DNA of 64,000 nt from Pyropia yezoensis. Its lineage: Eukaryota; Rhodophyta; Bangiophyceae; Bangiales; Bangiaceae. The stretch is taken from the NCBI GenBank assembly GCA_009829735.1, contig CM020620.1, forward strand, positions 4,394,299 to 4,458,298, given 5' to 3'. Below, piece by piece: positions 39,661-62,945 of the stretch. The notes below the pieces were generated by a model. That model saw only the letters and a program-made list of their open reading frames with translations, did not search any database and was not told the DNA's origin. The position numbers and the translations under genes were made by a program. Each line of letters opens with the position of its first letter. Position 1 is the first letter of the stretch.

Positions 39661-39979
39661 TGTTGGAGGGTTCTGAGTGTTTTGATTGGGTGTTTAGTGT
39701 AGGGAGTGTTGGCCCGCACTCCGGGGTCCCACAGCGGACCCTGGACCGGCGTGCCAAAGAGGGATATCTGCGCGTGGGGCTGTGCCCGTTGCTTCCCCCT
39801 CTCAAAAAATCAACCTTGCGTTACCCTCGTGCTCCCCGTCCCGGACGCTTCCACCCTCGCGTGGAGCTGTACATTCCGGCGGTTCTGACTCCGAGGTTTA
39901 TTCCCCGGGTTCCCCACCATCTCCTTCAGGAGGATAAGGTACCCCGTTGGTGTGGGCTTACGCCCAGATGACCACCACA
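39661..39979 (+). repeat. probable 5' LTR of element A
   Basis: The right end ACCACCACA is followed by TTTGAGGAGGAGCAGGGGA, closely like the LTR/primer-binding junction of element D (CCACATTTCGTGGAGCAGCA). The left end is uncertain because the matching 3' LTR is outside the window. Confidence 0.5.
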
Positions 39980-40123: not shown

Positions 40124-42512
40124 ATGCAGTCTGATGATCCTGCTCCTCCTCAAGGAGGAGGCTCTACACCTGTGGAAACGTCAAACGTGACAGCAGGCAC
40201 CGGCGAAGCTCCCGGTGGCGCCTCACGGACCAACCCTGGTGTTGAGTCGGCCGCTCAGCGGAAACGCCAGAGTATGTCCCGTTTGGACTTGCCTCCGGGT
40301 GGAGCGCCAGGCGCCGGTGAGGCTCCCGGCCTGGCACAAGCCGCTTCAGGCGCGACCCCTGATGGGGAGGCAGCCTGTAGCATCCCTGGCCCCGACTTCA
40401 CGCCGACCCGGCGTGGCAACCAGAGGGCACCAGGTGCCAGAACTCGCCTGCCGTGTGGTGATGGTTGACGGCCGTGGCCCGTGCCCGGCCCTGGGATGCG
40501 GTGGACTACGCTACCCACACGTGAGAGAGCGATTTCTGATGGGTTTTTGCATACTTGTTAGGGACGTGATATGAGAGAATTTGAGTGCGAGATTAGTAAG
40601 TGGGAATAGAATTAGTAGTGATAGTGGCCCCCGACCTGGCGAGGCTAGACTCGGGTCGGGGCCACTCGAGGGTATGGGGGGGCTCCCTGGAGAACGTGCC
40701 GAGGCTCCCCCAGATGCACGTTAAGAGGGACAGCGAGGCGCCCTTGGCCCGCGCCCTCAGGAAAAAGACAACTGCGCGTTTGCTTTCCTCTTCCCCGTGT
40801 GCACTACCGTTCGTATCTGCTAGCTCTGCGAGAAGGCACGAGAGGCAACAGGCATACCACTCTCGTAGTTCCCCTTTCTGTGTTACCTGTCCCATTCCCC
40901 CGAGGGATACTGACACGTGTCTGAGAGGATCGAGTTTTATACCACACAGCCCGCGGCTTCGGCGACCGCTCTACCTTTTCCTCCTGTGAGTGGGGGGCCT
41001 GGGCCTCACCCACGGGTTGGGGTACGTTTGCATCGCCCACCCAGGACCGCATGGCTACTCATACTCTCGGAGGCGCCGCTTCTGGGGGCGTACCCGCTGT
41101 GGGGGGGTCGTCCACCACGGCTGTGGGAACTGTTCCTCTGGTGGCTTTTCGCCAGATGTTGACTTAGGTGGTCTCATCAATTTCTGCCCGGCTCGAAAAG
41201 GTCGAGCGTTCAATCTCTCGATCTGGTCGGCGGACTCGCCGGCGACCCCACGGTTGTTCGCATACCTCTGCCTCTTCAGAGGCAATTGATGCCGATCCTG
41301 AGAGGCGTGGGGCGAGGCGCTCAAGCGCATCGACCCACCGCCAGGTGGCCCGTGTGCTATCCCCCTGGACGTAACGGGGAACCGGAGCGGGTTATCCCGC
41401 TCAAAATAATACCCGATGATGATACCTTTAACGGTATCCTGGATTGCGAGTCTTATGCACTCGCCAACAAGAGCGTACGCTATGATGAAGAGATGGCTCA
41501 CGGCTTAGGCCGAAAGCGCAAAGAGATATCCCTCACGTTTGGACGTGACGCCCTCTGGGACGGGACCCCCCCTCTAGGGTTGTTCGAATTCCTGAATCGC
41601 TTCTGTAAGGCTAGCGATGACAACGACCTCTCAGAAGGACGGGCTGCGTACCTCCTTCCGGAAGTTAGCAAAGGGGAGCTCAAGAAGGAACTCCTCTCCC
41701 TTATCCTCTCTAAGGCGGGGGGACGAGCGTGAGAGGTCACTTCATACTTGGAGCTGGTTAACTGGCTCCTCCGCAGTTATGCGGATGAGAAAATAATATC
41801 ATTCCAAGTGGCAGCGTTTAATAACGTTGCCCAAGAGGAGGATGAAACCGAGACCGCCTTTTACCGGCGCGTCCGCGACGCAAATGCGCTCTGCGGGTAA
41901 ATACATACTGCGAGCCAGCTTAAGGGCCGCTCTATGCAAGGGGTCTGGTGGGAGGTACGAACTGATGTCCGTGAATTTAATACACCAGACACGCCCATAG
42001 AGGCGTTGGTACGCTATGCTCAACGCAAAGGCGACATATGTCGCCGGCGCAATGAAGAGCTGCGGGCCCAATGGACCGCAAACGCCGCGGAGCGTCGGGC
42101 TCGGCGCGATGCTTCTGAAGGCATTGCAGCGGAGGTGGCTACTACCCCCGGCGGATCGTGCGTACCGTCGTTGTACGGGGGGAAGGCCAAATTTGGCTCT
42201 GAAGTGAAGTCCCCGGCTGATAAGCCGGGGAGGGAGCGTTTAAATCGCGATCCCGGCTTGGCTTGTAATAGCCATGAGCATTTTACGCGCTACTGTCCCG
42301 ACCTTAGTGTCGAGGCGCGGGCCAAGTTTGAGAAAGCTCGTAAGGAGCGCGCACGGGTTGAGGGCCGTACCCCGCGGGGTACGGCGGGCACAGCGCAGCC
42401 CGTAGCGGTTGTCACTGAGGGGGGGCCTTCTGGCGCCCCTGAAGGGGGGCCTGGCCCCCAGGGGAATACCGAAGAGTCAGAGGACTCTTCATCTGAGGAT
42501 ACCCCCTCCTAA
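40124..42512 (+). pseudogene. gag region of element A, broken
   Basis: Begins near MQSDDPAPPQGGG and continues through DCESYALANKSVRYDEEM to a basic/acidic tail before the protease. Gag proteins form the particle of LTR elements. The region is in pieces. Confidence 0.6.
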
Positions 42513-45331
42513 AAAACGATTAAGAGGGAGGCCTGATGAGGATGATTCCTCCCCCGGGGAAGAGGATGTCGTGTTGAAGCGCATCTTACCCCGACCTCGT
42601 GGGGTGAAGCGTAAGATGATCCGCCGTAAAGGGAAGGACGAAGCTAAGCAAGCAGCTCGGATGGTGGCATTAGTGTCACCACCCACGGCTTATCAATTAG
42701 CCGTACGGCTTTTTGTTACTAAGGGATATGAATGGGCGACGCGGGCCATCCTCGATACCGGGAGTGGCCCTTCGCTCGTCCGGAAGCAGGCGTTACCTCG
42801 GGGGTTCCCTGTGGAACCCATGGGAGACCTGGAAACCTTAAGGTTTTATGATGTGAACGGGGGATGGCTCCTCACAGTGGGAAGCGTCACCCGGGGGGTC
42901 TGTCTGGGAAAATAAGTCTCATATATATCCTTTGGCGTGGTTCCGAATATGTGCGTCCCTGTTATCCTGGGGAACACATTCATGGACTACGAAACTAAGA
43001 GTATTAACTCAGAGGACCAGACGGTCACCCTCTGATCGGGGGAGACCGTCCCCATCCTGCGAGGTGTTCAGAAGAGCCCCCGCCGCAAGCCGAACAGGGA
43101 GGCGGTGTGTGCGTGTCCCCGGGGGGTGAATGACCGCCTGGTCCTGACCCGCAAGACGCTTATGCGTCCGGGTACGAATGCGCACGTTCAAGTGCGTGGC
43201 AACTTTCAAGGCCACGGGTACATCCGTGGCAAGAGCACATTGCACTCCATTCATGGAGCGCAACTGGCCGAGGGGCCTGCCACGCTTAAGCCTGGTCAGC
43301 CTACTACGGTCGAGGTTATGAATCCGACCAAGCGGCCGGTACGTTTACGTGCCGGTTTGGCCATAGGACACAATACTGTGTTTGATGGCGGCAGCCAGGA
43401 AGCTACCGCCGAGGAGTTGAAGGATCCGGAACCGAGATCAGCTCCAAAGGATTTCTCCCTCGCCACCGGCATAGACCTGGGGACGGTGCCAGAAAGCCTA
43501 CGAGCTAAGCTCACGGCGCTTATAGGGAGATATAATTCTCTCTGAGATGGCACCCTCGGGACTATCAAAGAGACGGTACACCGTATCCGGCTTGAGCCAG
43601 GAGCGGTCCCCGTCCGACAACATCCCTATAAGTCTGGTCCTAGGACCCGTCTAGTGGAAGAGGAGCAAGTCCGATTCATGGACTCGCTCGGGGTCAGCGA
43701 ACCCGCCCACGGGGGGTGGGCTAGCCCCGTGGTAATCGTCCCGAAGCCTCGGGGCGGTAAACCATTTTGCATCGACTACCGCCGTCTTAATGAGATGACG
43801 GTGAAGGATTCATATCCTATCCCGCGTATGGACGAGTGTTAAGACTCACTCGGGAACGCCAACGTCTTTTCGACGTTGGATTGTAATGCTGGCTACTGGC
43901 AAATACCGGTAGCCAAGGAGGACCGGCCGTTAACGGCCTTTACGTGCCACTCTGGCACTTAGCAGTGCACGCGCCTCCCTCTTGGGCTGAGCAACGCACC
44001 AGCCACCTTTCAGCGTGCCATGGACATGATCCTGGCAAGCGTGAAGTGGCGGATATGTCTGATCTACTTAGATGACGTTATTGTCTTTCCAAGTCGGCCG
44101 AGGACCATTTGGAGCACCTTGAGGCGGTGCTCTCCCTCCTCAAGGCCCATGGGGTTTCCCTCAAGGCCAACAAGTGCCACCTCTGTCAAGAGGAGGTCGA
44201 CTACCTCGGCCATGTCAAAAGACCTGGCCGCGTTCTCGTTAACGAGAAAATACGAGAGCGCTACGAGGGTTGCAATACCCTCGTACACAAACCCAGATGA
44301 GAGGTTTTTTGGGGATGTGCGGCGTCTATCGGCGCTTCGTACGGGACTTCGCCAAAGTAGCGAAGCCCCTAACCGCGCTGACGAGTACCAAGCTTCCTAC
44401 GAAGCTATCTCCTCCCAAAGAGGTGAAGAGGAACGCTTTCGAGACGCTACGGGGGCTGCTTCTATCACCCCCCGTACTAGCAATACCTCGGATGGGCGGC
44501 CACTATATAGTGGATGTGGACGCGAACTATGAGCAGCTCGGCTGTTGCTTATTACAACAGCAACCCGACGGGGAATACCTCCCGGTAGGGTATTACTCCC
44601 GGCCGTTGAACCCGGCCGAGAGAAATTATCACGTCACCGAGATTGAAGCGCTCGGTGTCGTATGGGCCGTGACACACCTACGATCCTACCTTGAAGGCGA
44701 GGAATTCGTAATAAGGTGTGATCACCGTGCCCTTTTGTCGATGCTGGCTACAAATAGCCCAAACACCCGGATTAACCGTTGGCGGCTTCGGCTGTATGAG
44801 TTTACCCACAAGCTTCGGTATAAACCGGGGGCCGACCATGAGATAGCCGATGCTTTGTCACGCTTGCCCACGGACGAGCCTGACAAGGCTCCCATATAAG
44901 AGGACCTTCCGGTCTTCGCCACGGTTACCCGGTCTGCTCAGGCTTTGGCCGGGCGGAGCGAGAAGCATCGCCCTTTGGGGCCCATTACGGTAGAGGAGCT
45001 TATAAAAGCTCAGGCTGAGGACACCTTCTGCCTGGAACGGCGGAAGGAATGGGAGTCGGTACCTCCCCCTGACCCAAAATGGGCCAGGAAGGCTTTCTAC
45101 TTCGAGAACGAAGAAGGAATATTATGCCGGAGGTCCTTCTTCCTGGACACCACTCAGATGGTGCTCCCCACATCTCTACGGGAACGTGTTATGACGGTCC
45201 ACCATGAATTACCATTGGCGGCCCATACTGGAGCTCGCCGGATGTACGACACGCTGAGGCGTGGGGTCTACTCGCCCACCATGATTGTAGACGTGTACAA
45301 ACACGTCTCCCAGTGCACGGGGTGTGCTCGA
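42513..45331 (+). pseudogene. pol region of element A, broken and truncated by element B
   Basis: Protease, reverse transcriptase, RNase H ([19 protein letters not shown]) and the N-terminal integrase zinc region are recognisable in order. The integrase before RT-RNase H order of copia is absent, which makes this Ty3/gypsy. Several breaks are present. Confidence 0.85.
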
Positions 45332-45800
45332 TGTGGCAAAAATCACATGCACACACGGCACCCAAGTTGGGGCGGTGTGCAAGGGCTGCCTCCCGTGTCG
45401 GTGGAACCGGAAGAAGTGCAAGTCGCACACACTCTGTCCCTGTTGTGGGGCAACCCCCCCACGGACAAACAAGAGGATGGTGTGTGGTCCAACAGTTTCT
45501 TGGTCGGGACGGGGACGCAGGGCCAAGCCCCGCTGTCCCTCCCCTTATCCCCCCAGGGTCCACTCAGAATCTCGCCACTCAGAATCTCCCACCCCAGCAC
45601 CTGCCCACCGGGCCACACGAAAATTCAAGACGATAAATGCAGAAAACCCTCAAATCCAAGTTGGATTTACTACTAAGCTTACTATCCCAAACTTAGAGAA
45701 TATGGACCCAAATGCAGGGGGAGGAACGGATCAGGCTAGTGGCCTGCCGCCCCTTGCATGGCACGTGTTGCCCCCCTACCTGGGGGTCAATACTGCCACA
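45332..45800 (-). repeat. 3' LTR of element B, 469 bp
   Basis: Ends TGTGGCA/TGCCACA. In minus orientation it is directly preceded by a polypurine tract (45801-45814), which fixes it as a 3' LTR. It is the inverted counterpart of the LTR at 62457-62925, same length, about 11 differences by eye. Confidence 0.88.
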
Positions 45801-46138: not shown

Positions 46139-48082
46139 ATGGCGACCCCGGGAGTGGAGACGGACTCTCTAGATGAGCGTATGGAGGACACCACCTACGG
46201 TGCAGCACCCGCCGGGACTTCCGGCGGGGGCTCCGCGATCGCTCCGGGGGACTGGACTCCCGCGTCACCCGGCTTTGGGTTGACGGCGGGGTCTCCCCCG
46301 GAGGCGGGACAAGTTGTCCCGCGTGAGGCCTTGGGGCGGTGGTTTTACCCCGCTTGGCCTCTCTATGAGGAGGGGCTGACTGTTCTTCGCTGTGGCCGAC
46401 TTGGCGCAGCGATGGGTCGGGTATGGGACCGCCTACGGGAGAAGTATCCCCGTAGGGTCGAGTTCCCTGCCGGCTTCAGGACGGACCAGTTTGCCTTCCT
46501 GGACGATGAGGAGGTTGAGGACGTCCAGCGTGCCAAGGCCATGGTGGACCGCGGGGGAACTATCCCGGGTCCCGGCGACTTGCCGACCTTTACTTGGGAC
46601 GCGGTGGCAACTCGCCCCCCGTACCTCCACGAGGCCGATCCGCACACTCATCACTTTGATGTTCGGATGGAGAAAGACTTCCGGCGAGGTCCCTACTTGG
46701 TGACCTCGGCTCAACTTGAGTTTCCTCAACAGTCTGCTGCCAGCAAGGAGCAGTACTATCCGAAGAAGCCCGAGTGGTGGCCTCAAGTTGAGGTCCCCTA
46801 CGGGTTCCCGGCGTTGTTGCCACGGTTGCTTGACCACTTCGGCTCCGTCATGTTGACGGCTGGCCCTGATCACCTGGTGTGGGCCATGTTGGCCACCCAG
46901 TGGCTCCTCGAGGTCATGTCGACCTGGGTGTCTTGTGTTCAGCGGCGGGGGATGCTCTGGCATCTCCCCCTCCGGCTCCTCCAAGGTTTGGAACAGCTCA
47001 CCCCTCAGCTAGTTGCTGAGGGGTGCTCATCAGGACAACTCACTCTACTTGAGGAGATGCTCCGGCTCCATAAGTTTATCGAGTGGGAGAGCATTGAGCA
47101 CAAGTTGCGCCGCCCCACTCGTGGGCCCAAGGACGATGGCGCACTTCGCCAGTTCGTGTGGGTCGCTCTTGAACTTCACGACGGCCGTGTGGTCCTACGA
47201 GAGGGGTTGGGCATCGGGGACTACCCGTATGCCCCGGGGGTGGATCGCCACACTGCGCCACCCCCGGACAAGCCCATAGTTATGGCTGTGCCCTCATATG
47301 ACGACCATATGACTCAACCTACTGCGGGGGCCCCAAGTCGGGGTCGCAGTTGTACCCGGGTACCGCCACCTCGGCGGGCCCCTCCGCTTCCTCCTGTTCC
47401 TTTCCAGCCTCACGCGAACATCCCGATCAGCGTGGCCGTGGAGTCTTCCACCCCGGTGTCCCCCAACTTGCGGGCCACCCTCCTGACGGTATACCCCAAG
47501 TTGGTGTTACCGCCCACGCCTCTAACCTCAGAGATGATGATCACCACGTTGGTGCGCACCATTTCCTGGTTGGCCGCGTCGACCGCAACCCTCCAAAGTT
47601 CCGAGACTCCTCAACTTGAGGAGCGCGCCCGTCCTGCTGTGGCGACCGCGAGTTGCGAGTCGGTGGCGGAGTTTATGACAGCCGAGTTGGCTCGCATTGG
47701 GGCTATTATGCCCCAGCCAGACCCACTTGGGCGTGGCAAACGTCGCGCGAGCCGGGCATACTCGCCTCCTCGCCGTCGTCGCCGACACTCGCGGCGCTCT
47801 CCCTCCGTGTCGGAGGACGAGTTGTCTTACTCCATTTCGGAGTCCTCTACCCCGTCGGAGACGGAGTCTGTCCAGCGTCTGCGTCGCAAACTTGCGCGCA
47901 AGACCAGGCAGAAGAGTGGCCGCGGTCGGCGCCACTTGCGCGACCGTGAGGGGCGCGACGGTTCCGACTTGGAGCCGCCGCCCCTTCCAACGAGTGGAGA
48001 CCGTTATCGGCGTGGGTCTCGCCGCTCGCCTCCACGTGAGGGCGAGGGCCGTGGAGTGGGAGAGTCTAGCATGCGTGCCTAG
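46139..48082 (+). CDS. antisense open frame of element B, unknown 647-residue protein
   Basis: This frame lies on the strand opposite gag-pol, between the pol end and the 3' LTR, and is open for 647 residues from the ATG at 46139. The N-terminal 60 residues are Gly/Ala/Pro-rich. The middle is well-mixed and looks folded, with Trp/Tyr-rich segments such as WWPQVEVPYGFPALL and VQRRGMLWHLPLRLL. The tail is Arg/Ser-rich (SPPRRRRRHSRRSPS), as in RNA-binding or SR-like proteins. No known domain is recognised. The middle resembles the antisense frame of element C (VRRQGRLFHLP against VQRRGMLWHLP, with similar surroundings). Antisense genes of unknown or regulatory function are known in some plant gypsy elements. 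Whether this is expressed is unknown. Confidence 0.6.
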   Translation: MATPGVETDSLDERMEDTTYGAAPAGTSGGGSAIAPGDWTPASPGFGLTAGSPPEAGQVVPREALGRWFYPAWPLYEEGLTVLRCGRLGAAMGRVWDRLREKYPRRVEFPAGFRTDQFAFLDDEEVEDVQRAKAMVDRGGTIPGPGDLPTFTWDAVATRPPYLHEADPHTHHFDVRMEKDFRRGPYLVTSAQLEFPQQSAASKEQYYPKKPEWWPQVEVPYGFPALLPRLLDHFGSVMLTAGPDHLVWAMLATQWLLEVMSTWVSCVQRRGMLWHLPLRLLQGLEQLTPQLVAEGCSSGQLTLLEEMLRLHKFIEWESIEHKLRRPTRGPKDDGALRQFVWVALELHDGRVVLREGLGIGDYPYAPGVDRHTAPPPDKPIVMAVPSYDDHMTQPTAGAPSRGRSCTRVPPPRRAPPLPPVPFQPHANIPISVAVESSTPVSPNLRATLLTVYPKLVLPPTPLTSEMMITTLVRTISWLAASTATLQSSETPQLEERARPAVATASCESVAEFMTAELARIGAIMPQPDPLGRGKRRASRAYSPPRRRRRHSRRSPSVSEDELSYSISESSTPSETESVQRLRRKLARKTRQKSGRGRRHLRDREGRDGSDLEPPPLPTSGDRYRRGSRRSPPREGEGRGVGESSMRA

Positions 48083-48194
48083 TTGGCAGCTGCCTTTGTT
48101 GTGAGAGTGTGAGGGTTAGGGCTGTAGTTAAAAGCCACTCTGCGTACCACTTCGACTTGAAGCACTCTCTTGGCACTGTTGCTCGGCCTTCCCC

Positions 48195-48720
48195 TCACGT
48201 TGAGGGAGGGCTGGTAGGGTCTATCTCATTCCGGGCACAGTACGCCCGGACCTTCTCAGCGGGAAGGTCCTCCACATACTCCCACGTATCGTCCTTGGCT
48301 TTGTAGCCTAACCAACGCACCCTGAACATGAGGCGGTCAGTGTCTTCATCCCATCCGTGGTCGATGAACTTATCGAACACGTACTCCTGCGGGCCCTGTT
48401 TGGCCGCGGGCAGTGAGGGGAGGCGCCACGCTTCCAAAGCACGCGCCCAAGCTGGGTCGCCTGCAGGCGGTGGTGCAACTTTGACTACGTCCTGTCCGTT
48501 CACTGTGCGGACCCCATCGTCACTTTCGATGGTGAAGCGCCGCCCATCAGTACGAAGGACCTGGTACGGTCCCTTCGTCTGGAATACCAGCTTACCCCCA
48601 GTTGGGGTGTGCGAGTGTACCAGCACCCAGTCACCCTGCTCGGGGACGTGCTTAGCATTGCGCACCTTTTTGTCAAGGGTACGCTTGTAGCGCTTTTGTG
48701 CTTTGTCCATCTCAGCCCTG
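48195..48720 (-). pseudogene. C-terminal pol part of element B with chromodomain
   Basis: Reads EMDKAQKRYKRTLDKKV, the usual gypsy integrase tail (GDWVLV, GPYQVL), then a chromodomain near the end (MFRVRWLGYKAKDDTWEYVE). Chromodomains guide chromovirus integration to modified histones. Separated from the rest of pol by element C. Confidence 0.85.
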
Positions 48721-49082
48721 TGTAGCACAATAGGAATCCGTCGCACGTCCACTCTCAGGGAACACTCACCAAGGGGGATCGGCACCAACGTCACCGGGAG
48801 GCCAAGGTTGCTGTCCTTGGAGCGCAAGCCACGGGACCAAGATGGGAGCCCAAATGGGAGGGGTTTGTTGTTCTACCTTGGCCGGCGGTGGATTCGCCAC
48901 CGGCCCCCTCGTTATAAACCCTCGGAGACACTACTAACTACCCTCCACCCCAAGATGCAAGTCCCTCTGGTCATACGTAACTTATAGATACCGTGACCAG
49001 CTCGGACTCTCAAATTGAAGTTAAGGATTAGAAGTAGCCCCCCTGATATTAGGGTCACAATACGGACAACCATATTGCTACA
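48721..49082 (-). repeat. 3' LTR of element C
   Basis: 362 bp, TGTAGCA...TGCTACA, with TATA-like TTTATAA on the minus strand. Two differences from the 5' LTR at 59514-59875. Confidence 0.95.
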
Positions 49083-49667
49083 TATCCCCCCCTTAGATTC
49101 GGCCCGTCCTCGGGTCGAGTTGCATGCGGGTTACCGAATGTAAGTGGGTCGCGTGACTGTTTACCCGTCGGGTGGGGCTTTGCGCCCCGTCGCGACAGAC
49201 ACCCGTTTTCGAGGTTGTCTGAGGGGGGTGCCCCCCTTTGTGTGGTACACACACGATCCGTTTTCCGGACCGTTGAATTCCCGATGCGGGTTTTTGTTCA
49301 CGACCCCCCTTTCCGAGGGGCGGTGCAAGCGGATCCGCCACCAGGTGCCTGGTGGTAGGGGGGTCCCTCTCGTGTGGACGATTGAGTGGGGGGCGAGGGC
49401 TGCCCGCGTTGCGTGGGGGCGGTTGGGGGTGACCCCCCTTGCTTACCCCATGTGTGGGGGTGGCCCCGTCCCGCCCAGGTGCCTGGGTGGGGCGCGTTCG
49501 TAGCCCCGTGCGGCGTGGGTCGACCCGCGTGTTTGTGGCGCTGCTCGTGGCCGTTTGTGGTCATAAGCGCGGGTGCCTGCGCTTCCCTGGCTCGTCCCGC
49601 TTATCCCACCGTACCGGGTCGTAGCCGTCGACGGCTTGTGGGCGCGAGGGACTCTGCACCCGTTATC

Positions 49668-52115
49668 ATGTCCTATCCCCAGGTGCTTGGAGAGGAGGAA
49701 GACCTCCTGATCGGGGAGGAGATGGAGGACGACGCGCCTGTCGGTCCCGACGCCGCGCGTTACGGGGTGAGCTCGTCTGACGACGACGGGCCTGCGGTGT
49801 CCGTCCGTCTGTCGGCCGGAGGACTGTCGTCCGTGTGCAGCGGCACGACGGTGCCGTCGGCCGGCGGTCAACCCGGCGGTCAACCGCGCGTGGCGGCTTC
49901 TACCCCCTCTCTGCCGGCTGCCCGGATGGAGCCTGGTGCCGGTGCCGGCTCACCGCAGCTACCTCAAGATGGTCCGCCCTGCGGCGGAGGTGGCGACCCG
50001 CAGCCGACTCCGGCTGGTCAAGGTGGTCCGGGTGTCCGGGCGGTGACTCCTCGAGGCGGTCCCGACGTTGACGCGGGTGGTGGTGGCGGTGCGACACCCG
50101 GTGCGGCGGGTCAAGACGGTGCGGGTGTCCGCACGGCCGGGGCTCCGGCTCCGGAGGCTGTTCAAGTGCCTTCCCCTTCCGAGGCGGGGGCTACGCCGAC
50201 GGGTGGTGCCGGCGCCGGTACCATACCTGCGGTGCCGCGGGTGTCGAGCGGTCAAGACGCTCCTTCTCCCATGGCGGTTGACACCGGGAGTTACTCCGGG
50301 CGGGCGCCCGCCCATCTTCTTCCTCCTCGGCCTCGTCCATCTCCGACGTCGGCCCCTCTGCCGGTGGTGCGTCCCCCGGCGCCCCCGATTCTTCCTGGTC
50401 CTGCCCGGGTTGCCCCGTTGGGTGGCGGCGTCGCCGTGGCGGCGGGTCAACCCGCAATGTCGGTGTCCGACTTGGTGGCTCGGGTTCGAGGCCTCACGGT
50501 GCAAGAGTCGATGGAGTCCGTTGGGCGTATGCGGGTGGACCTCCACCTGGTGCATCCCCGTGGAGAGTCCTCCCGCCGCGTTAAGGTGGACCCGAGCTGG
50601 GAGCGGGAGTTGGTGCGGCTGGTCAACCAGCCGAACGCGGTCCGGGTGGAACATCATTGGATCCTGAGTCAGCCGGACGACCGGCATGCGCAGCTCTGGC
50701 GCACCCGGGTGGGACGGGGTGAGGTCTACCTCGACCCCAACTTCGGGGTCTGCGACCTGATTGCCCCCGCGTTGCCGCGGGAGATTGACTACCCGGCTAG
50801 TGCTCGGGGGATTGCGGCGGCGGCGGAGCCGGTTGCGTTTGGGGAGACGGTGGGCAGTACCGGTCGGTATCCCGACTTTGACTACTACCCGAGGGTACCC
50901 ACGTATCTGTCGTTGACGGCTCCCTACCCGCCCATGGCGGGGTTGAAGTCGGCGTCGAGTTGGCGACGTAACCATGGTGTCATGGCGGATGCGTTCCGCA
51001 CGGATATAACGTGTGCGTTGCAGACCGGCAACGGTCGTGCTCCGGTATATACTCCCGTGCGCCCGCCGCTATGGCAGGAGGGGTGGGAACCCGCCCCTGC
51101 TTTCCGGTTTGACACCGGCTCCTGTCTTCGCTACTTCGAAAGTGTGTTGGCCTCGCGACCGGTCCACCCGTTGCAGGGTACCTTCACCCTTGAGGTTACC
51201 CTCGGGCAGGCTTCATCCTTCTTGCTGTCCGTCCGCCGGCAGGGTCGTCTGTTTCATCTTCCGACGGGTGTCCGTCGGCACATCGCGCAGTTGGGCGTGG
51301 ATCTGATAGCCGCCAAGACCGGGTTGGCCCGGGAGTTCGAAGCCCTGCTGGCTGTTCACGATGCCGTGAACTGGGCTGGGGTGTTGGCCCTTCCCCCGTA
51401 CCAGGACCCGCAGGCTGGGGCTTCCCCCTTGCCTCGTCACTCGTTGCGTGTCCGGCGTACTCAGCCGGGTGAGCCCATTTGCCATGGGTGGGCATCCACC
51501 GAGGCTGTTGCTGACCAGGGTATTCCCATGGTTATCCATGACCCTCTTCAGGTCCTTGCTCCGTGGTTCGGTAACCCGATGCCGGCGGCGGTTGGCCGTC
51601 GTCCCCGAGAGTGGGGCTCTGTGGGTGGGGAGCGTGAGGTGTCCCGTCGTCGGGCGGAGTACAGCCGTGGTTACGGTGGAGCCCCTTCGGTAGGGTCCTA
51701 CCGGGCCTCGTATCAGGTGCCACCGGCTCCGGTGGTAGCCGTGTCGGCTCCTGTGGCTCCTCTGGCTGCGCCAGTGTCACCTCCCGCCCCTGTCCTACAT
51801 GACGGGGGTCCCCGTCTCTGGTATGAGGGCGTTGACGCCCTTGTTACCCGCGCAATGCGTGGGGGTCTCTCTGTTAGCTGGGGGGATATCCCCCCAGGTG
51901 CTGCGCTGGTTGGGTCAGCGCGTTGCTTCGGTGGCGTGCTGGACCGCCTCCAGAAAGCTCTGGAGGACGTGGAGGCTGGCCGCAGCACCCTCGTCCAGCT
52001 ATGCACCGAGGTAACTCGGGTGGTCGACCGTCGTGACGTTGCCGACCGGTGGAGCACGGAGGTCTACGCGCTTACGCGTGAGTGGCCTCCCTCGGGCAGT
52101 GGGTCTACCCACTGA
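49668..52115 (+). CDS. antisense open frame of element C, unknown 815-residue protein
   Basis: An open frame opposite gag-pol, between pol and the 3' LTR. The chosen ATG at 49668 starts MSYPQVLGEEEDLLIGEEME; the frame is also open upstream to 49386. The first 260 residues are Gly/Pro/Ala-rich and acidic at the start. Residues about 265-630 look folded (FDYYPRVPTYLSL, CLRYFESVLA, VRRQGRLFHLPTGVRRHI). The C-terminal 100 residues suggest helices (LDRLQKALEDVEAGRS). No known domain is recognised and there is no RT, gag knuckle or protease motif. The middle resembles the antisense frame of element B. It is convergent with pol: its stop is 815 bp from the pol stop, across a hairpin-rich spacer. Confidence 0.65.
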   Translation: MSYPQVLGEEEDLLIGEEMEDDAPVGPDAARYGVSSSDDDGPAVSVRLSAGGLSSVCSGTTVPSAGGQPGGQPRVAASTPSLPAARMEPGAGAGSPQLPQDGPPCGGGGDPQPTPAGQGGPGVRAVTPRGGPDVDAGGGGGATPGAAGQDGAGVRTAGAPAPEAVQVPSPSEAGATPTGGAGAGTIPAVPRVSSGQDAPSPMAVDTGSYSGRAPAHLLPPRPRPSPTSAPLPVVRPPAPPILPGPARVAPLGGGVAVAAGQPAMSVSDLVARVRGLTVQESMESVGRMRVDLHLVHPRGESSRRVKVDPSWERELVRLVNQPNAVRVEHHWILSQPDDRHAQLWRTRVGRGEVYLDPNFGVCDLIAPALPREIDYPASARGIAAAAEPVAFGETVGSTGRYPDFDYYPRVPTYLSLTAPYPPMAGLKSASSWRRNHGVMADAFRTDITCALQTGNGRAPVYTPVRPPLWQEGWEPAPAFRFDTGSCLRYFESVLASRPVHPLQGTFTLEVTLGQASSFLLSVRRQGRLFHLPTGVRRHIAQLGVDLIAAKTGLAREFEALLAVHDAVNWAGVLALPPYQDPQAGASPLPRHSLRVRRTQPGEPICHGWASTEAVADQGIPMVIHDPLQVLAPWFGNPMPAAVGRRPREWGSVGGEREVSRRRAEYSRGYGGAPSVGSYRASYQVPPAPVVAVSAPVAPLAAPVSPPAPVLHDGGPRLWYEGVDALVTRAMRGGLSVSWGDIPPGAALVGSARCFGGVLDRLQKALEDVEAGRSTLVQLCTEVTRVVDRRDVADRWSTEVYALTREWPPSGSGSTH

Positions 52116-52574: not shown

Positions 52575-53165
52575 GTCGGTGTCGGTTGGGTTGTTACATG
52601 AAGCTCTTACAACCCACCGGTCAGATGACCCGGTGGGACCGGATGGGATTCCATACCAAGTAGAGAGCGTGGTCGGACACACCGACCCGGACCTACCAGG
52701 ACCCTGGTACGTCAAGGTTATGTGGGTCGGATACGACTCACCCACCTGGGAACAGGCGGCAAATATACCCCGCCAACTCCTCATGCCGTACATAAGGCGA
52801 CGACGCCTACTGTAACAACCCAACCGACACCGGCTCCGACTGTTGGGGGGTGAGGCTTATACCTACTAAGTAGGGTGTGACGTGGTTACGGCAGACTTAG
52901 GTTTCTAAGTGCCGGTGTCGGTTGGGTTGTTACAGTAGGCGTCGTCGCCTCATGTACGGCATGAGGAGTTGGCGGGGTATATTTGCCGCCTGTTCCCAGG
53001 TGGGTGAGTCGTATCCGACCCACATAACCTTGACGTACCAGGGTCCTGGTAGGTCCGGGTCGGTGTGTCCGACCACGCTCTCTACTTGGTATGGAATCCC
53101 ATCCGGTCCCACCGGGTCATCTGACCGGTGGGTTGTAAGAGCTTCATGTAGCAACCCAGCCGGTA
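52575..53165. repeat. inverted duplication of the pol chromodomain tail
   Basis: Arm 52575-52838 is a reverse-complement copy of about 52912-53165, the end of pol with the chromodomain. The spacer 52839-52911 is itself an inverted copy of about 52482-52570. The arms are nearly identical through the chromodomain and diverge at the outer edge. Both arms carry GGTGTCGGTTGGGTTGTTAC at one end. Confidence 0.85.
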
Positions 53166-56100
53166 CCGGCTGAGGCTGTTCCGGCATCGGAGCAGGTGTG
53201 ACGTCATTCATGCTGATGCGTTGAATCTCCGTATCGGAGTGTAAGATACCAGAGTGGTCATCTCTGTGGAGGATCTGGTACGGTCCCTTGACCGGTTGCA
53301 TAAGCTTGTTCCCTCGGAACTTCTGGTGTCTGATATAGACCCAGTCACCTGTTACCAGGGTTGCGTTGCGCACCCGTAGTCGGGCGTCGAAGTTCTTCTT
53401 GTATCGAAGTTGTGTTCTGTCAAGGGCACCCTTGAGCTTAGGAATCATCCACGATAGCTTGGCCAACCAAGCTAGGTGGATGCGTTCGGCGGGTCGGCCC
53501 TTCGGTGTATCATACCGAGTGCACCTGCCGGGTGGCAGCGTCAAGTTACCGACGCCTAGTGGCATGACCCACTCCAGCGGAGCAATGTTTGTGCTCCGAT
53601 GTGGCCTGGCATTGTATGCCAGGGTGAGTACGGACAGAAGCCTGTCCCAAGTGTTCGTGTGCTCGGCCACGTAGCACTGTAGCATCTTTACGATGGTGCG
53701 GTTGAACCGCTCCACCTGCCCGTTGGACTGCGGGTGGTAGTCGGATGCCCGACGTGGTTCGATACCGAACATGCCCAGGACCTTAGTGCAGAATGCCGAC
53801 GTAAGGTTTGCTCCATTATCGGAGAGGAGTTGCTTCATGACTCCGTATGCACTGATCCAGTGGTCAACCACTGCGTTCATGATCGTGTATGCCGTATCAT
53901 TCGGGATGGCTGCCGCTCTTGACAGCTTAGTGAAGCGGTCAGACATGACCAGGATGTACCTGTTCCCTTCTTCCGTTATCGGAAGTGGCCCGAGTATGTC
54001 GATAGCGACTTGCTCGTTGGGCCCATCAGGTGGGAATAGCTTCATGGCAGACGCCCGCCTATGTAGACTAATGCGGTTACGTGCACAGGGGTGGCATCCC
54101 CTTACGTGGTCGACCACGTCGACGGCCATTGCTGGCCAGTAGAAGAACCTTCGCATTGCTGCGAACATACGTGAACCCCCCGGGTGTCCGGCTGTAGGGT
54201 TCTCATGTTCTCGTTTCATGACGGCTTGCCGTAAGGACACGGGAACCACGACTTGATGTCGTCCATCGGCGGGTGCCCGCCGGTATATGAGTCCGTCTTC
54301 GTTCTCGGAGAAGATGCCGGCCGTACCGGCCAGGAGGTTAGCACGATGACGTCTACAGTCATCGTCGTTGGCCTGTGCCTCGCGGAAGTCCGCGAGGGTC
54401 AATGGGCACGCAAGGTGTGCCATGGTATGGTCAGCCATACCTTGGGTAGCATTACCCACCATGCACACCGGTACTACCGGGATGTCCTCGTCCACCGGGC
54501 GGGTATCCCCGCTCGGGGTGTCGAGTCGAGACAACGCGTCTCCGAGGTGGTGGGTTGACCCAGCCTTATACACCGTGCGGTAGTCGTGCTCGGCCATCTT
54601 CAGCCTCCATCGGGCTAGCCTCCCATGGCTATCGGAATCCTTGTCACCAAGGTTGAGGAGCCATCGTAGGGGTTCGTGGTCGGACCTCACGATGAACCTG
54701 GAGCCCTCCAGGTATGGACGGAGCAGTTGCACTGCCCATATAACTCCGAGGCATTCACGCTCGGTGGCACTATAGTTCCGCTCAGCCGGGTTGAGTGTCC
54801 GGCTGAAGTACCCTACCGGACGTAGGTCCGGGATAACGTTGTCGGTACCTATCAACGTCTCTCCCTGTAACAGGGTGCATCCCACTTGTGTATCACACGC
54901 ATCGATATCGATGACGAAGGTACCCCGTCTATGCGGTAACGCAAGGACGGGTGGGGCTAGTAGGGCTCGCTTCAGCGACTCGAATGCCTCCTCTTCGCTA
55001 GGCGAAGGGGGTTGGAGTACCTTGGGTAAGGTACTGCTCGTAAGAACCGTTAACGGTTTAGCTATCCGAGCGAAGTCCTTGACGAACCGTCGGTATACAT
55101 TGCACATTCCCAGGAAGCTCTTGAGCTTCGTCTGGGTGTTAGGGAACCGGGCATCCCGGAGTGCCCGGGTATTGGCTTCGAGTACCCCTAGTTTACCAGG
55201 GGTTATCTGGTGGCCCAGATACTCGACCGTCTGTTGGAAGAAGGCGCACTTCTTCAGACGCAGGGTTACCCCGGCGCTCCTCAAGAGGGTGCGTACCTCG
55301 TCAACATGTTGTACATGGTCATCCATGTTACGCGAGAAGACGATGACGTCATCGAGGTACACTAGGCAGTTACGCCACTTCACCCCCGACAGTATGATGT
55401 CGATAGCCCGCTGGAATGTAGCGGGGGCGTTGGACAATCCGAAGGGCATCCTTAGGAACTCGTACACTCCACTGTGACAGACGAATGCCGTCTTGGGGAT
55501 ATCCTCGTCCGCCACCGGGATCTGCCAGTATCCGGCATTGCAGTCGATGGTGGTAAACACCGTAGCCTCCCCCAGGGAGTCGATGCATTCATCCATCCTT
55601 GGTAAAGGGTATGAGTCCTTCTCGGTAACCAAGTTGAGGCGTCGATAATCGATGCAAAACCGAGGGGTTTGATCCTTCTTCGGCACAATAACGACTGGGG
55701 CACCCCATTCCGACATCGAAGGTCGGATCACCTTAGCTTCACTCATCCTCTTCACTTCTCCATCAACGATCTCTCGTTGCATAGGTCCCGCTCGGTGCGG
55801 TTGTGAGCGGGCGGGTCGTGCGCCTGGTACCAGGTCTATACGATGTTGGGTTGCCCCAATGGTCCCCAAGGCCCCGCCTGTCCACATAACGTCATGCTTT
55901 CTTAGCATCCGTCGTACCCCTTCGGCTACCGAAGGGGGAAGGTGGTCGAGGTCAGCCTCGGCCAGTGCCTTCAAGGCCTCTTGGTCCTTTGGCGGCAGGT
56001 CCGCCGGAGCCGCCGATGGGTTAGGCTTCCCGTCATCGGGTTGCTGTCGCTCGGTGGTCTCGGCGACCGCCAGTACTTCAAGTGGTTCCACTTGACCTTC

Positions 56101-57096
56101 CTTATGAGGGGTAAGGATATCTCCTTCGTAGAGTTCGGCAATCCCGAGGATAGTTCCCTTCGGGAGGGTGACTGACTTACGGCGATAGTTCGCCATCACT
56201 AGGAGGGACGACCCTCCTGCTGAAAGGTCTATGAGACCGTTGGCCATGGTCAACCCATGGCGCTTGTACGTCCGTAGGTTGGACTGGACTCTGCAGATGC
56301 CTGCGAGGTCGCAGTTAACCGGGAGGACTGTCTCTGACAACGGCTCAAAGCGAGTTCGCTTGGCCAACCGAAGTGTCTTCGGCTCGACGCTTGCGTACAC
56401 CTCAGCCACGTTAACGTGGCTTCCTTGTAGCGTCAGGTCCCTGACGATAGCCGTGTGTCCTCGCTTCGTCCCGTCGGCTTCTTGAAGCTCGACGGTCCTC
56501 CGGCCTGGCCGGATTGCATCAACGTGAACGTTGATGAAGGTGCACCCCAGTATGCAGGGCACCGATAGCGTTTCACATACCAGGAAGTCAACTTCCGTGG
56601 TGAGATCCCCGATGGTAACCTGCAGCGACATCGCTGCGGTCGTACGAATGAGTCGACCATTCGCGTCCTTGATGGTGGGTCCCCGAGTCACTCTGACTCG
56701 TGGAAGCCACTTGTCCGGGAGGGTATCCTTCCGGATAAGGTTGGGTCCAGCCCCTGTGTCCAGGACAGGGTAGTACGATCGTGTCGACTGGGGGTCAACC
56801 CCCAGTGTGGCTGATACCTTGAAGTTCTCCAAGGTAAACAACACATGTCCTACACCGATATCCGGTGTAGCTCGGGCATCCTGAACAGGGCCCTTGTCTG
56901 GTTCGACGTGACGGGGCTTCCCGTCCTCTCCTCCCAACCTTGGAGGTTGGTCATCAATCCCCTGACGCCGTGTCGTCGGGGCCGGAAGGTGTACCCGGGG
57001 GTTGATGCGGCGTCCGCTCAACCGCGCTCTCCGTGGGGCTTTCCCCGCGGTACTCCGGGGTGGCTTGCTTGGGTAACCCCAGCGCCCCCCGGTCAT
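52930..57096 (-). CDS. element C pol: protease, RT, RNase H, integrase, chromodomain
   Basis: 1,388 residues in one frame. In order: protease (VLDTGAGPNLIRKD), reverse transcriptase ([26 protein letters not shown]), RNase H (FVIDIDACDTQVGCTLLQ), integrase with its HHCC zinc region and DDE core (AIDILGPLPITEEGN, LLSDNGANLTSAF, DYHPQSNGQVERFN), then a chromodomain (YQVESVVGHTDP, KVMWVGYDSPTWE). The chromodomain places it among chromoviruses. Starts 9 bp after the gag stop, in a different frame. Looks whole. Confidence 0.93.
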   Translation of the reverse strand: MTGGRWGYPSKPPRSTAGKAPRRARLSGRRINPRVHLPAPTTRRQGIDDQPPRLGGEDGKPRHVEPDKGPVQDARATPDIGVGHVLFTLENFKVSATLGVDPQSTRSYYPVLDTGAGPNLIRKDTLPDKWLPRVRVTRGPTIKDANGRLIRTTAAMSLQVTIGDLTTEVDFLVCETLSVPCILGCTFINVHVDAIRPGRRTVELQEADGTKRGHTAIVRDLTLQGSHVNVAEVYASVEPKTLRLAKRTRFEPLSETVLPVNCDLAGICRVQSNLRTYKRHGLTMANGLIDLSAGGSSLLVMANYRRKSVTLPKGTILGIAELYEGDILTPHKEGQVEPLEVLAVAETTERQQPDDGKPNPSAAPADLPPKDQEALKALAEADLDHLPPSVAEGVRRMLRKHDVMWTGGALGTIGATQHRIDLVPGARPARSQPHRAGPMQREIVDGEVKRMSEAKVIRPSMSEWGAPVVIVPKKDQTPRFCIDYRRLNLVTEKDSYPLPRMDECIDSLGEATVFTTIDCNAGYWQIPVADEDIPKTAFVCHSGVYEFLRMPFGLSNAPATFQRAIDIILSGVKWRNCLVYLDDVIVFSRNMDDHVQHVDEVRTLLRSAGVTLRLKKCAFFQQTVEYLGHQITPGKLGVLEANTRALRDARFPNTQTKLKSFLGMCNVYRRFVKDFARIAKPLTVLTSSTLPKVLQPPSPSEEEAFESLKRALLAPPVLALPHRRGTFVIDIDACDTQVGCTLLQGETLIGTDNVIPDLRPVGYFSRTLNPAERNYSATERECLGVIWAVQLLRPYLEGSRFIVRSDHEPLRWLLNLGDKDSDSHGRLARWRLKMAEHDYRTVYKAGSTHHLGDALSRLDTPSGDTRPVDEDIPVVPVCMVGNATQGMADHTMAHLACPLTLADFREAQANDDDCRRHRANLLAGTAGIFSENEDGLIYRRAPADGRHQVVVPVSLRQAVMKREHENPTAGHPGGSRMFAAMRRFFYWPAMAVDVVDHVRGCHPCARNRISLHRRASAMKLFPPDGPNEQVAIDILGPLPITEEGNRYILVMSDRFTKLSRAAAIPNDTAYTIMNAVVDHWISAYGVMKQLLSDNGANLTSAFCTKVLGMFGIEPRRASDYHPQSNGQVERFNRTIVKMLQCYVAEHTNTWDRLLSVLTLAYNARPHRSTNIAPLEWVMPLGVGNLTLPPGRCTRYDTPKGRPAERIHLAWLAKLSWMIPKLKGALDRTQLRYKKNFDARLRVRNATLVTGDWVYIRHQKFRGNKLMQPVKGPYQILHRDDHSGILHSDTEIQRISMNDVTPAPMPEQPQPVPAGLLHEALTTHRSDDPVGPDGIPYQVESVVGHTDPDLPGPWYVKVMWVGYDSPTWEQAANIPRQLLMPYMRRRRLL

Positions 57097-57104
57097 CCTT
57101 CCTC

Positions 57105-59294
57105 TTACTCGTTTCCCGCCCTTGGTAGGGTGCTGTCCGCCGGGACATCCGGCTGAGGAGGTGCCCCCTCGACGGCCAGTACTCCACCTGGAGCTGGCTG
57201 CCTACCCGGTGCGGGTCCGGGTGCTCGGGCGGGATACCCCCCGGTGGATGCCTTGCGTTGCGCCGCTGCCCGCCGAGACTCCTCGGGGATGAGTGGGCAG
57301 GAAGACACCCAGTGCTGGGGATCCCCACACAACATACACCCGGACGTGCCGGTCCCCCCTTGAGTTCGCATCGGGGTAGCCCCGTAGCTACGGTTGCCTC
57401 CCTCGGGCGCCCGAGTGCCTGCTCCCTGGTAGGCCTTGGGTCCTTGGGTCAACCGGAACATGGACTCCCCCAACCGGTTGGGTCGGCCCGCAATCTGCGG
57501 AGGTGCCTCCGTGCGCACCGCCCATGTTGGCAAGGGTTGGTGAGGGTTACCCGTCACCGGGGAGTACCCCGTAGTCCGCACATACGGGACGCGCCGTCCC
57601 GTTCCTTCGTTGACCTGGAACTGGGTTCCAGCCGGGGCGATGTACGCTACCGTACCATGTTCATCAATCACCGGCGTCGCCGGTAGCAACAGGTGGCCCT
57701 GTTGGTCGACTAGAGGGTCATCCTCACCAATAGGGGTATGTTCGGTCGCCACCAGCACTGGTGCGGCCTTACGTTCCACCTTCTCTTGCCTCGGTACCGG
57801 GGTAAGACTGGGCTTGCCTCCCTCACCCTTGGGCTTCGGGGCCAAGGCACACTCCGGGTGTAGAACCCGGTAGGCGTCCCCTAGGGACTTGCACATATGC
57901 ATCAGTCGACTGAAGTTCGTCCGTGCCGTGTTGGCGCCTCGTGAGGATATCCGCACGTAGTTGGGTACTCCTGCGAACAGGATGGCCCGTAGCTCCCCTT
58001 CTCCGAGGAGCTTCCCCAGCTCGTAGTCGAGCTCTTGGATCCGGCGTCCAAACATCTCCTCATCCTCCCAGGACTGGGCGGTGGCAGTGCGAAGGGCCCG
58101 ATAGTGGTCCTCGCACTTGTCCTCACTGAGGTAGCTGCTCAGCAGCTCCTTCAATATCCCACGGTAATCCATGAGGGTGGCCGCGACCCTCATTCCCGGC
58201 ATCGGGGATGCCTGGCGAAGAATGCCTCGCACCCGTTCATCAACAAAGAACGGGAGGATCTCCAGGGCCAGCCCCTCGTTAACGAGCGCCTTGTCTGCGG
58301 CTGCCTTGAAGCTAGTCAAGAAGCCGATGACTGCCAACGGGCGTCCGTTCGGCCCCCCGAACATAGGGACTCCCTTCATAAGGGTCTGCATAGAGCGGAT
58401 CGCCCGATGCGACGTATTACGCATCGATTCCGATACGGTGGTAGAGCGGTCCTCCAAACGATAACGTTCCGGAGTAAGAACCGACCGGAAGACCTCGTTG
58501 ACGATCTCCGTGTCAGCGTCCTGGATATCCAGTCGCTTAGCCAGTTGATGAGCGAACTCATCGGACTCCATCCGCTTCAGTAGGCTCGCAGTTACCTGCG
58601 CGGTCATAGCTTCCACCACTGAAGATGGTACTTCAGGCGTCGGCACCTCGGGAACCCGAGTTGCCTGGCCTCCTTCGTCGTGGGGGTACTGCGAGAGGGT
58701 ACCCCCTCCCCCAATAACCGACTCTCCCCCGGCGTACGTATCCGCCGGGTCGTGTCCGCGGAGTCCGCTTCGGGTGCTCCGAGCGTATCGCTCCGTGTGA
58801 CTCCGTTCCAACTCTGCCGACGAGTCGGACCCATACCCCATTGTGTCCGGGGGTTGTCCAGGAGTAGCAACCCCGGGATTGACCCTGGTGGACTCCGAAA
58901 GTAGTCCGGCCGGTTCGAACCGTACCGGTGTGGGAGGAACACGACGGGGTCCCGTCGTGTGCCGTGTTGACATCAACACTGCCATTGCGTCCTCCGTCCG
59001 ATCTTGACGGGCGTCGAGCCCGGAAAACCGGGCCTCGATGCGGGCCAATGATGCCATCAGGGAATCCCCTGGTGAAGGAGGCGGCGGAGTGAGGTCGGTC
59101 GACGACAGTTGAGGCGGGCCCCCGCCTCCTGCCGTCCGAGCCGTGCCAAACATCGATCCGGAACCGGAAAGCATTGGCGTCTCAATGTTATCGATCGGGT
59201 TCCCGATCCCGGTTCCCGTAGTCACCTCCGGAGTCGGCGTCGACGCCGATCCGTCATCTTGAACGTTCCCCGTCTCTTGGGTAGACATAGTCAC
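57105..59294 (-). CDS. element C gag
   Basis: 729 residues starting MTMSTQETGNVQDDG. The N-terminal third is Pro/Thr/Ser-rich. A helical capsid-like middle follows (GFLTSFKAAADKALVNEGLA, YRALRTATAQSWEDEEM), and a single zinc knuckle near the C-terminus (CMLCGDPQHWVSSC, C-X2-C-X4-H-X4-C) is the RNA-binding nucleocapsid motif. Looks whole. Confidence 0.9.
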   Translation of the reverse strand: MTMSTQETGNVQDDGSASTPTPEVTTGTGIGNPIDNIETPMLSGSGSMFGTARTAGGGGPPQLSSTDLTPPPPSPGDSLMASLARIEARFSGLDARQDRTEDAMAVLMSTRHTTGPRRVPPTPVRFEPAGLLSESTRVNPGVATPGQPPDTMGYGSDSSAELERSHTERYARSTRSGLRGHDPADTYAGGESVIGGGGTLSQYPHDEGGQATRVPEVPTPEVPSSVVEAMTAQVTASLLKRMESDEFAHQLAKRLDIQDADTEIVNEVFRSVLTPERYRLEDRSTTVSESMRNTSHRAIRSMQTLMKGVPMFGGPNGRPLAVIGFLTSFKAAADKALVNEGLALEILPFFVDERVRGILRQASPMPGMRVAATLMDYRGILKELLSSYLSEDKCEDHYRALRTATAQSWEDEEMFGRRIQELDYELGKLLGEGELRAILFAGVPNYVRISSRGANTARTNFSRLMHMCKSLGDAYRVLHPECALAPKPKGEGGKPSLTPVPRQEKVERKAAPVLVATEHTPIGEDDPLVDQQGHLLLPATPVIDEHGTVAYIAPAGTQFQVNEGTGRRVPYVRTTGYSPVTGNPHQPLPTWAVRTEAPPQIAGRPNRLGESMFRLTQGPKAYQGAGTRAPEGGNRSYGATPMRTQGGTGTSGCMLCGDPQHWVSSCPLIPEESRRAAAQRKASTGGYPARAPGPAPGRQPAPGGVLAVEGAPPQPDVPADSTLPRAGNE

Positions 59295-59494
59295 AATCAG
59301 TCCACCGACGCAACGATCACCACGAATAAGAGAGCGAGGGGTTAGATTGGGGAGAGTAACAGTATGTCACAGTCACAGGTAAAATCTCAACACAATTGAT
59401 CAGGTCGCAACACCACGAGTACAAGAAAAGGACCGGATCCCTATCCGTGTGCCAGGGCCGAAGACGGCGTCACCACAAGGGTGACGGAAACCCG

Positions 59495-59513: not shown

Positions 59514-59875
59514 TGTAGCACAATAGGAATCCGTCGCACGTCCACTCTCAGGGAACACTCACCAAGAGGGATCGGCATCAACGTCACCGGGAGGCCAAGG
59601 TTGCTGTCCTTGGAGCGCAAGCCACGGGACCAAGATGGGAGCCCAAATGGGAGGGGTTTGTTGTTCTACCTTGGCCGGCGGTGGATTCGCCACCGGCCCC
59701 CTCGTTATAAACCCTCGGAGACACTACTAACTACCCTCCACCCCAAGATGCAAGTCCCTCTGGTCATACGTAACTTATAGATACCGTGACCAGCTCGGAC
59801 TCTCAAATTGAAGTTAAGGATTAGAAGTAGCCCCCCTGATATTAGGGTCACAATACGGACAACCATATTGCTACA
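59514..59875 (-). repeat. 5' LTR of element C
   Basis: 362 bp, nearly identical to 48721-49082, followed by the target duplication CCCTG. Confidence 0.95.
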
Positions 59876-62456: not shown

Positions 62457-62925
62457 TGTGGCAGTATTGACCCCCAGGTAGGGGGGCAACACGTGCCATG
62501 CAAGGGGCGGCAGGCCACTAGCCTGATCCGTTCCTTCCCCTGCATTTGGGTCCATATTCCCTAAGTTTGGGATAGTTAGCTTAGTAGTAAATCCAACTTG
62601 GATTTGAGGGTTTTCTGCATTTATCGTCTTGAATTTTCGTGAGGCCCGGTGGGCAGGTGCTGGGGTGGGAGATTCTGAGTGGCGAGATTCTGAGTGGACC
62701 CTGGGGGGATAAGGGGAGGGACAGCGGGGCTTGGCCCTGCGTCCCCGTCCCGACCAAGAAACTGTTGGACCACACACCATCCTCATGTTTGTCCGTGGGG
62801 GGTTTGCCCCACAACAGGGACAGAGTGTGTGCGACTTGCACTTCTTCCGGTTCCCCCGACACGGGAGGCAGCCCTAGCTCACCGCCGCAACTTGGGTGCC
62901 GTGTGTGCATGTGGTTTTTGCCACA
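62457..62925 (+). repeat. 5' LTR of element D, 469 bp
   Basis: TGTGGCAGTATTG to TTTTTGCCACA, the same length as the LTR of element B with about 11 differences. A primer-binding site follows directly, so it is a 5' LTR on the plus strand. It contains a small direct repeat, AGATTCTGAGTGG, twice. Confidence 0.88.
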
Positions 62926-62930
62926 TTTCG

Positions 62931-62945
62931 TGGAGCAGCAGGGGA
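62931..62945 (+). promoter_or_regulatory. element D primer-binding site
   Basis: TGGAGCAGCAGGGGA, 5 bases after the LTR, identical to that of element C. Confidence 0.8.

Follow-up and report, generated by a model that had tools for sequence, protein, structure and literature searches.

Antisense genes of long terminal repeat (LTR) retrotransposons are known, to our knowledge, mostly from one flowering-plant lineage. They have been reported in Retand and Grande of plants and in the fungal element Boty (PMC7264820, PMC11963269). The antisense open reading frames (ORFs) of Retand, a non-chromovirus of eudicots and Liliopsida, encode a TRP28 domain (PF04195); their function is unknown, and a regulatory role has been proposed (PMC11963269). 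Gene23 of Grande has an upstream promoter that drives its transcription, and its product is nuclear; retroviral antisense genes regulate expression (PMC7264820). Here we describe an antisense gene in gypsy elements of the red alga Pyropia yezoensis. The elements, A, B and C, are nested in a 64,000-nucleotide stretch of contig CM020620.1 (assembly GCA_009829735.1, positions 4,394,299 to 4,458,298, forward strand), hereafter the window, and their copies were collected from the genome (107.5 Mb, 11 contigs). An earlier note on the window had claimed a conserved protein-coding gene antisense to gag-pol in the two diverged families B and C, and had stated that a few plant gypsy elements have antisense genes. 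Both statements held, and the gene was found to extend to family A, to the C-like lineages D1 and D2, and to Pyropia vietnamensis.

The note had placed antisense frames of 647 (B) and 815 (C) residues between pol and the 3' LTR, and both were found with that position and orientation (Table 1). Family A carries a corresponding ORF in a copy outside the window (L065); this frame is 539 amino acids long from its ATG and likewise lies antisense to gag-pol between the end of pol and the 3' LTR. In D1 and D2, pol faces the antisense frame. Tandem-like repeats of approximately 14 and 35 bases occupy L065:3311-3802, located between the 3' LTR of this copy and the beginning of its antisense frame.

One possibility is that such frames arose by chance because the DNA is GC-rich, or that they shadow a gene on the sense strand. 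The guanine plus cytosine (GC) content of 63-64% favours long frames, and the window holds others. Against this, frames of such length are rare by chance, as the note had supposed: measured from stop to stop, the B and C frames span 724 and 909 amino acids, while the longest frames in 500 order-1 Markov replicas of their regions reached 426 and 450, respectively, such that both frames outlast all 500 replicas. Moreover, the frame is conserved across families and species, the ratio of nonsynonymous to synonymous substitution rates (dN/dS) is lowest in the true frame, and stops occur in reverse frames. A chance or shadow frame was rejected on the replica lengths, the between-lineage dN/dS and the wrong-frame controls. 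We regard its probability as negligible and the antisense gene as almost certainly real.

The predicted proteins of A, B, C, D1 and D2 form one homologous family, each encoded beyond the end of pol and on the other strand. BLASTP aligned the B and C proteins over 189 amino acids at 24% identity, with an expect value (E) of 5e-08; a second comparison of the pair gave 1.5e-07. The motif pair to which the note had drawn attention, VQRRGMLWHLP in B and VRRQGRLFHLP in C, sits inside this significant alignment. The B-C core scored 119, a value reached in 0 of 500 window-wise shuffles (maximum, 64). Similarly, a profile-profile comparison of B with C, in which the B side comprised only two near-identical sequences, yielded an E of 7.8e-06 and a probability of 84%. 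The A (L065) and B proteins were 32% identical over 218 amino acids (E of 5e-21, or 9e-14 with low-complexity masking), and B matched the D2 protein at an E of 6e-08.

The divergence of the antisense protein was compared with that of pol. Antisense protein identities were 32% for A-B, 24% for B-C, 54% for C-D1, 61% for C-D2 and 66% for D1-D2. The pol proteins of B and C, which the note had described as diverged, were indeed 56% identical in the reverse transcriptase (RT) part (400 amino acids) and 42% in the part spanning ribonuclease H (RNase H) and integrase (448 amino acids). Across RT and RNase H, A was closer to B (70% and 57%) than to C (50%), and pol identities were 86-89% for C-D2, 83% for D1-D2 and 81% for D1-C. 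The order of divergence was thus the same in pol and in the antisense protein, as judged by identity rankings. Because the two rank alike, the gene probably dates back to the ancestor shared by A, B and C and was inherited with the element.

Relatives outside the genome included eight hypothetical Pyropia vietnamensis proteins, 51-64% identical over parts; in these searches the protein had no known counterpart beyond such algae. A wider protein search with profile A2 returned 13 proteins, 8 of them from this species, and the search for relatives envisaged in the note thus placed the family in a second species. Six pattern matches in viral contigs did not yield a confirmed relative. Within P. 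yezoensis, the A antisense protein has two more groups of homologues, F (approximately 33-38%) and G (approximately 31-37%), whose frames span approximately 616-900 amino acids.

Other copies of the elements carry the frame as well, a test that the note had named. Matches to the C frame comprised at least 55 copies, all at least 97% identical, of which 51 were stop-free; the 55 are the best-scored matches and represent a lower bound. A sample chosen independently of the protein was obtained from a DNA search with pol, which listed 40 places; 20 of the 39 outside the window were read. The antisense frame was present in all 20 and full length in 19, and the 3' LTR was visible in 17. Fourteen copies were free of stops or indels, four had stops and three had indels, one of them both. 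In 30 C loci selected by protein match, five of which also belong to the pol-selected sample, frame length was kept throughout; two lacked the ATG, one lacked the stop and one had an inner stop. For B, all 127 listed core matches were stop-free, and the nine listed pairs of a B core and a chromodomain within 4 kb, the window's included, were all convergent with near-constant spacing.

Family A was collected by a pol DNA search that listed 40 places. Searching with the A core listed 118 places, nine of which match almost the entire core at 86-100% identity, five of these with one stop. Thirteen pairs of A pol and antisense matches were listed at 11 pol places, and in 13/13 the match was antisense and downstream of pol. 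The C-like lineages D2 (L057) and D1 (L058, with one core stop) also carry the frame. When the positions of core matches were checked against 150 listed RT places, four pairs in mixed arrangements were found for the A-core search (109 of its 118 places; 2.7 expected by chance) and two for the B core (127 places; 3.0 expected). These counts say little because the listed RT places are mostly from other families. In two of the four pairs from the A-core search, the RT match stood on the same strand as an F-group homologue, downstream of it by 4.42 and 4.43 kb. No pol was recognisable in 1000 bases read next to one of the F matches (L067).

The same-strand pairs bear on whether the frames derive from a different transposon or host gene inserted antisense and standing outside the element's life cycle. 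Their arrangement is unseen in A, B and C, and the antisense protein is unrelated to gag-pol, as a foreign origin would have it. However, position and strand are alike in A, B, C, D1 and D2, divergence is ranked as in pol, and an ancient capture would be an origin, not a function. We consider such an insertion improbable.

We evaluated selection between lineages by comparing the C frame with seven related-lineage pieces, chosen by us from 130 listed in a protein search. Using the NG86 method, dN/dS was 0.20-0.26: 0.20 for S1 (dS 0.12), 0.22 for S2 (dS 0.12), 0.26 for E1 (dS 0.20), 0.22 for E2 (dS 0.91) and, at saturated dS values of 1.4-1.7, 0.24 for D2a, 0.25 for D2b and 0.21 for D1. Across all 28 pairs the ratio was 0.19-0.30, the exception being D2a-D2b (0.75, based on 3 changes). 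Over a longer part, C-D2a gave 0.30, and pol of this pair gave 0.05-0.06. In a control using the core, the true frame had a dN of 0.23 and a dS of 1.07, whereas dN exceeded dS in both remaining plus frames and in two of the reverse frames. The mirrored reverse frame had a ratio of 0.35 and lost six codons to stops. Over the stretch that starts with the C frame and runs to the pol end, DNA similarity of C and D2 was confined to the frame, the duplicated pol end described below excepted. Judged by these ratios, the antisense protein is under purifying selection between C lineages, weaker than that on pol, as for an accessory protein.

These results also address the possibility that the antisense RNA itself matters, by forming double-stranded RNA with gag-pol RNA or by giving rise to small RNAs, the open frame being incidental. 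The convergent arrangement would suit this role, and such RNAs have been discussed for plant elements (PMC7264820). An incidental frame is at odds with the between-lineage ratios and with the higher ratios in wrong frames, even the lowest of which, the mirrored one, lost codons to stops. An RNA-only function appears very improbable.

Several results weigh against a selected gene carried throughout these families. The selection claimed in the note, clear between lineages, was weak within young copies: in the 20 pol-picked C copies plus the window, the ratio of nonsynonymous to synonymous changes (N/S) was 0.83 of neutral (97/2000 simulations as low), and in the 18 indel-free rows of this set it was 0.74 (70/2000 simulations). 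Young C copies are a weak test of selection because the last 88 pol codons are unconstrained there too (1.42). In the 30 C copies ranked by protein score, N/S was 0.53 of neutral and 0/1000 simulations were as low, a result favoured by this choice of copies. The frame is also not intact everywhere. Six B copies were read: two were open, two had one inner stop, and in two the frame was lost, masked letters being present in one of the latter. In A copy L066, one of two A copies read, the corresponding region is deleted, and an antisense match within 5 kb was listed at 11/40 A pol places, the other 29 having no listed match. With respect to homology, whole-frame comparison gave two wrong-frame pairs scores of 112 and 150, as compared with 119 for the true B-C pair. 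These pairs presumably arise from low-complexity stretches; in a frame control restricted to the core, the true pair scored best (119) and the mirrored frame second (89). A and C did not match directly (score 43; 100/500 shuffles as high), and A is linked to C via B. The same-strand RT matches in group F belong among these points, as does the poor quality of the AlphaFold2 models, whose mean predicted local distance difference test (pLDDT) scores were 39.9 for the C middle and 35.5 for the B middle.

In the predicted B protein, the conserved part spans residues ~109-375, and an Arg/Ser-rich basic tail spans ~537-600 (net charge +12 in 541-600). The C protein has an acidic start (net charge -11 in 60 residues), a Pro/Ala/Gly/Ser-rich stretch (61-240), a conserved middle (~265-640) and a conserved C-terminal stretch. 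A similar acidic start, bearing DDLL/EDLL, is found again in P0002 and in P0006 of Pyropia vietnamensis. In the A, B, C and D2 proteins and 11 members of A2, no Pfam family passed the cut-off; DUF6214 appeared twice below it, and PF04195 was absent among the matches. Profile A2 had no match among PDB sequences at E up to 5. Both structural models display a run of helices followed by two strands, at low confidence and from input alignments that share sequences. Of the 595 PDB matches that Foldseek returned with E no higher than 10, none reached 0.001 or lower, and no fold is claimed.

Based on its location between pol and the 3' LTR, the protein might be env-like. The strand is the wrong one for this, and B and C contain no membrane-like segment, the highest 19-residue hydropathy being 1.2 and 1.4, respectively. 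The env-like candidate was set aside as unsupported by hydropathy, and we judge it extremely improbable. A better candidate for a different role is a structural or packaging part of the particle, such as a second gag-like protein or a nucleic-acid chaperone, rather than a regulator. Conservation across lineages, the basic Arg/Ser tail of B and the mostly helical conserved middle predicted by the two low-confidence models would all suit a particle component. It is disfavoured by the lack of similarity to the gag frames of A, the B family and C, by the Pfam results and by the absence of the gene from many A copies. We consider this role unlikely; derivation from gag was likewise left unsupported by the comparison with the gag frames.

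Overall, we favour, with moderate confidence, a selected antisense gene whose product is a nuclear accessory protein acting in trans. Transcription from an antisense promoter in or beside the 3' LTR would produce an mRNA convergent with the gag-pol RNA. The predicted accessory protein is soluble and probably nuclear; it would combine an acidic, disordered N-terminus with a conserved middle domain and with stretches that are basic or rich in Arg and Ser. Through trans action on the RNA or DNA of the element, or on some host factor, it may control how the element is expressed or handled in the nucleus, as has been proposed for the Retand and Grande antisense genes and is known for those of human T-cell leukaemia virus (HTLV). 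We infer the transcript, promoter, localisation and trans action by analogy with described antisense genes, and the functional step alone, a trans-acting accessory protein, is proposed tentatively. Loss of the gene from many A copies in which pol persists fits a trans-acting product and equally fits a dispensable gene. A broader and more speculative proposal is that the gene is older than the divergence of three or more red-algal gypsy families from one another, is still diversifying and encodes a trans-acting controller that arose independently of Retand and HTLV, gene-less copies, including many of A, being kept mobile by gene-bearing ones. Groups F and G would add to the suggestion that it is still diversifying.

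Table 1. Features of the nested elements A, B and C in the window (positions numbered from its first nucleotide).
Feature	Position	Strand	Basis or remark
Antisense frame of element B	46139..48082	+	647 aa from ATG; stop-to-stop 724 aa
Antisense frame of element C	49668..52115	+	815 aa from ATG; stop-to-stop 909 aa
Element B 3' LTR	45331..45800	-	Genome copies running on from antisense frame
Element B pol C-terminal end with chromodomain	48195..48720	-	Open frame and Pfam
Rest of element B pol (RT, RNase H, integrase)	59881..62456	-	Two frames split by in-frame stop
Element C 3' LTR	48721..49082	-	LTR pair 99.4% identical
Element C 5' LTR	59514..59875	-	LTR pair 99.4% identical
Element C target duplication ccctg, 5 bp	Left copy 48716..48720, right copy 59876-59880		
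Element C pol (protease, RT, RNase H, integrase)	52930..57201	-	Open frame and Pfam
Element C gag frame	57105..59366	-	
Element A 5' LTR	39342..39979	+	Matched by 3' LTR of A copy L065
Element A gag-pol remains	41163..45330	+	Cut by B within integrase; own 3' part outside window

Element C is inserted in the pol of B, which runs from 62456 to 59881 and then from 48720 to 48195, and B is inserted in A. The 3' LTR of B was delimited by 39 other genome places that match unbroken from position 46700 to ~45332. Because B copies run continuously from the antisense frame to ~45332, the inverted copy at 62457-62926 is taken to be the LTR of another B-family element. Indeed, at 62457-63998 a plus-oriented B-family LTR is followed by a plus frame that starts at 62955 and leaves the window, interrupting the pol of B.

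Element C was assigned to Ty3/gypsy based on its LTRs, its target duplication and a pol with RT and RNase H ahead of integrase. Its gag match in Pfam was below the cut-off; the frame presumably contains a CCHC-like motif. The note had called B and C gypsy chromoviruses. By the Pfam chromodomain cut-off (25.1 bits), this label is supported in B only, whose C-terminal pol chromodomain scored 27.0 bits; C had no Pfam chromodomain match, though its pol end aligned with the B chromodomain piece at 26% over 168 amino acids. The A match scored 22.8 bits, below the cut-off. The pol end of C is present as an inverted duplication, 98.8% identical, at 52583-52834 and 52911-53162, adjoining the antisense frame. 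This duplication appears peculiar to the window copy or its assembly because the 29 other protein-selected C copies are without it, approximately 245 aligned bases being missing in each.

Elsewhere in the window, remains of a DNA transposon lie at 28718-29602 (Tc5-type helix-turn-helix and DDE_1 Pfam matches over the cut-off). The frame at 7826-9043 contains a GATA zinc finger over the cut-off, that at 14978-18118 has a Glyco_transf_61 match barely over it, and that at 20064-22109 has a weak zf-4CXXC_R1 match below it.

With respect to arrangement, several described systems come close. Grande gene23 and the antisense aORF-3R of RIRE2 and PvRetro13 have the same position and strand as the algal genes (PMC7264820); they are likened by arrangement and differ in having flowering-plant hosts. 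Outside plants, Boty of Botrytis cinerea has an antisense ORF in the corresponding place, after pol and before the 3' LTR (PMC7264820); it is again likened by arrangement and differs in its fungal host. In Retand, tandem repeats are frequent in the region between pol and the 3' LTR (PMC11963269), and A copy L065 also has repeats upstream of its frame. In contrast to Retand, the algal proteins scanned lack PF04195, and the pol of algal B ends in a chromodomain. Among retroviruses, HBZ of HTLV, encoded antisense and transcribed from a promoter of that orientation in the 3' LTR, has been cited as a parallel (PMC7264820, PMC11963269). The algal proteins differ in having no basic leucine zipper (bZIP) or other Pfam family over the cut-off; HBZ is a bZIP protein. 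Literature searches limited to open-licence papers found no reports of antisense genes in red-algal LTR elements. Thus, the arrangement was already known, whereas the protein family, the host group and the occurrence in chromodomain elements look new, as far as the searches reach. With many near-identical open copies in a 107-Mb genome, several diverged families and relatives in another species, the role of these genes is amenable to testing. If an unrelated protein family occupies the position and strand known from the described elements, but in a distant host and in chromodomain elements, this would point to repeated evolution of antisense accessory genes because they are useful to the element.
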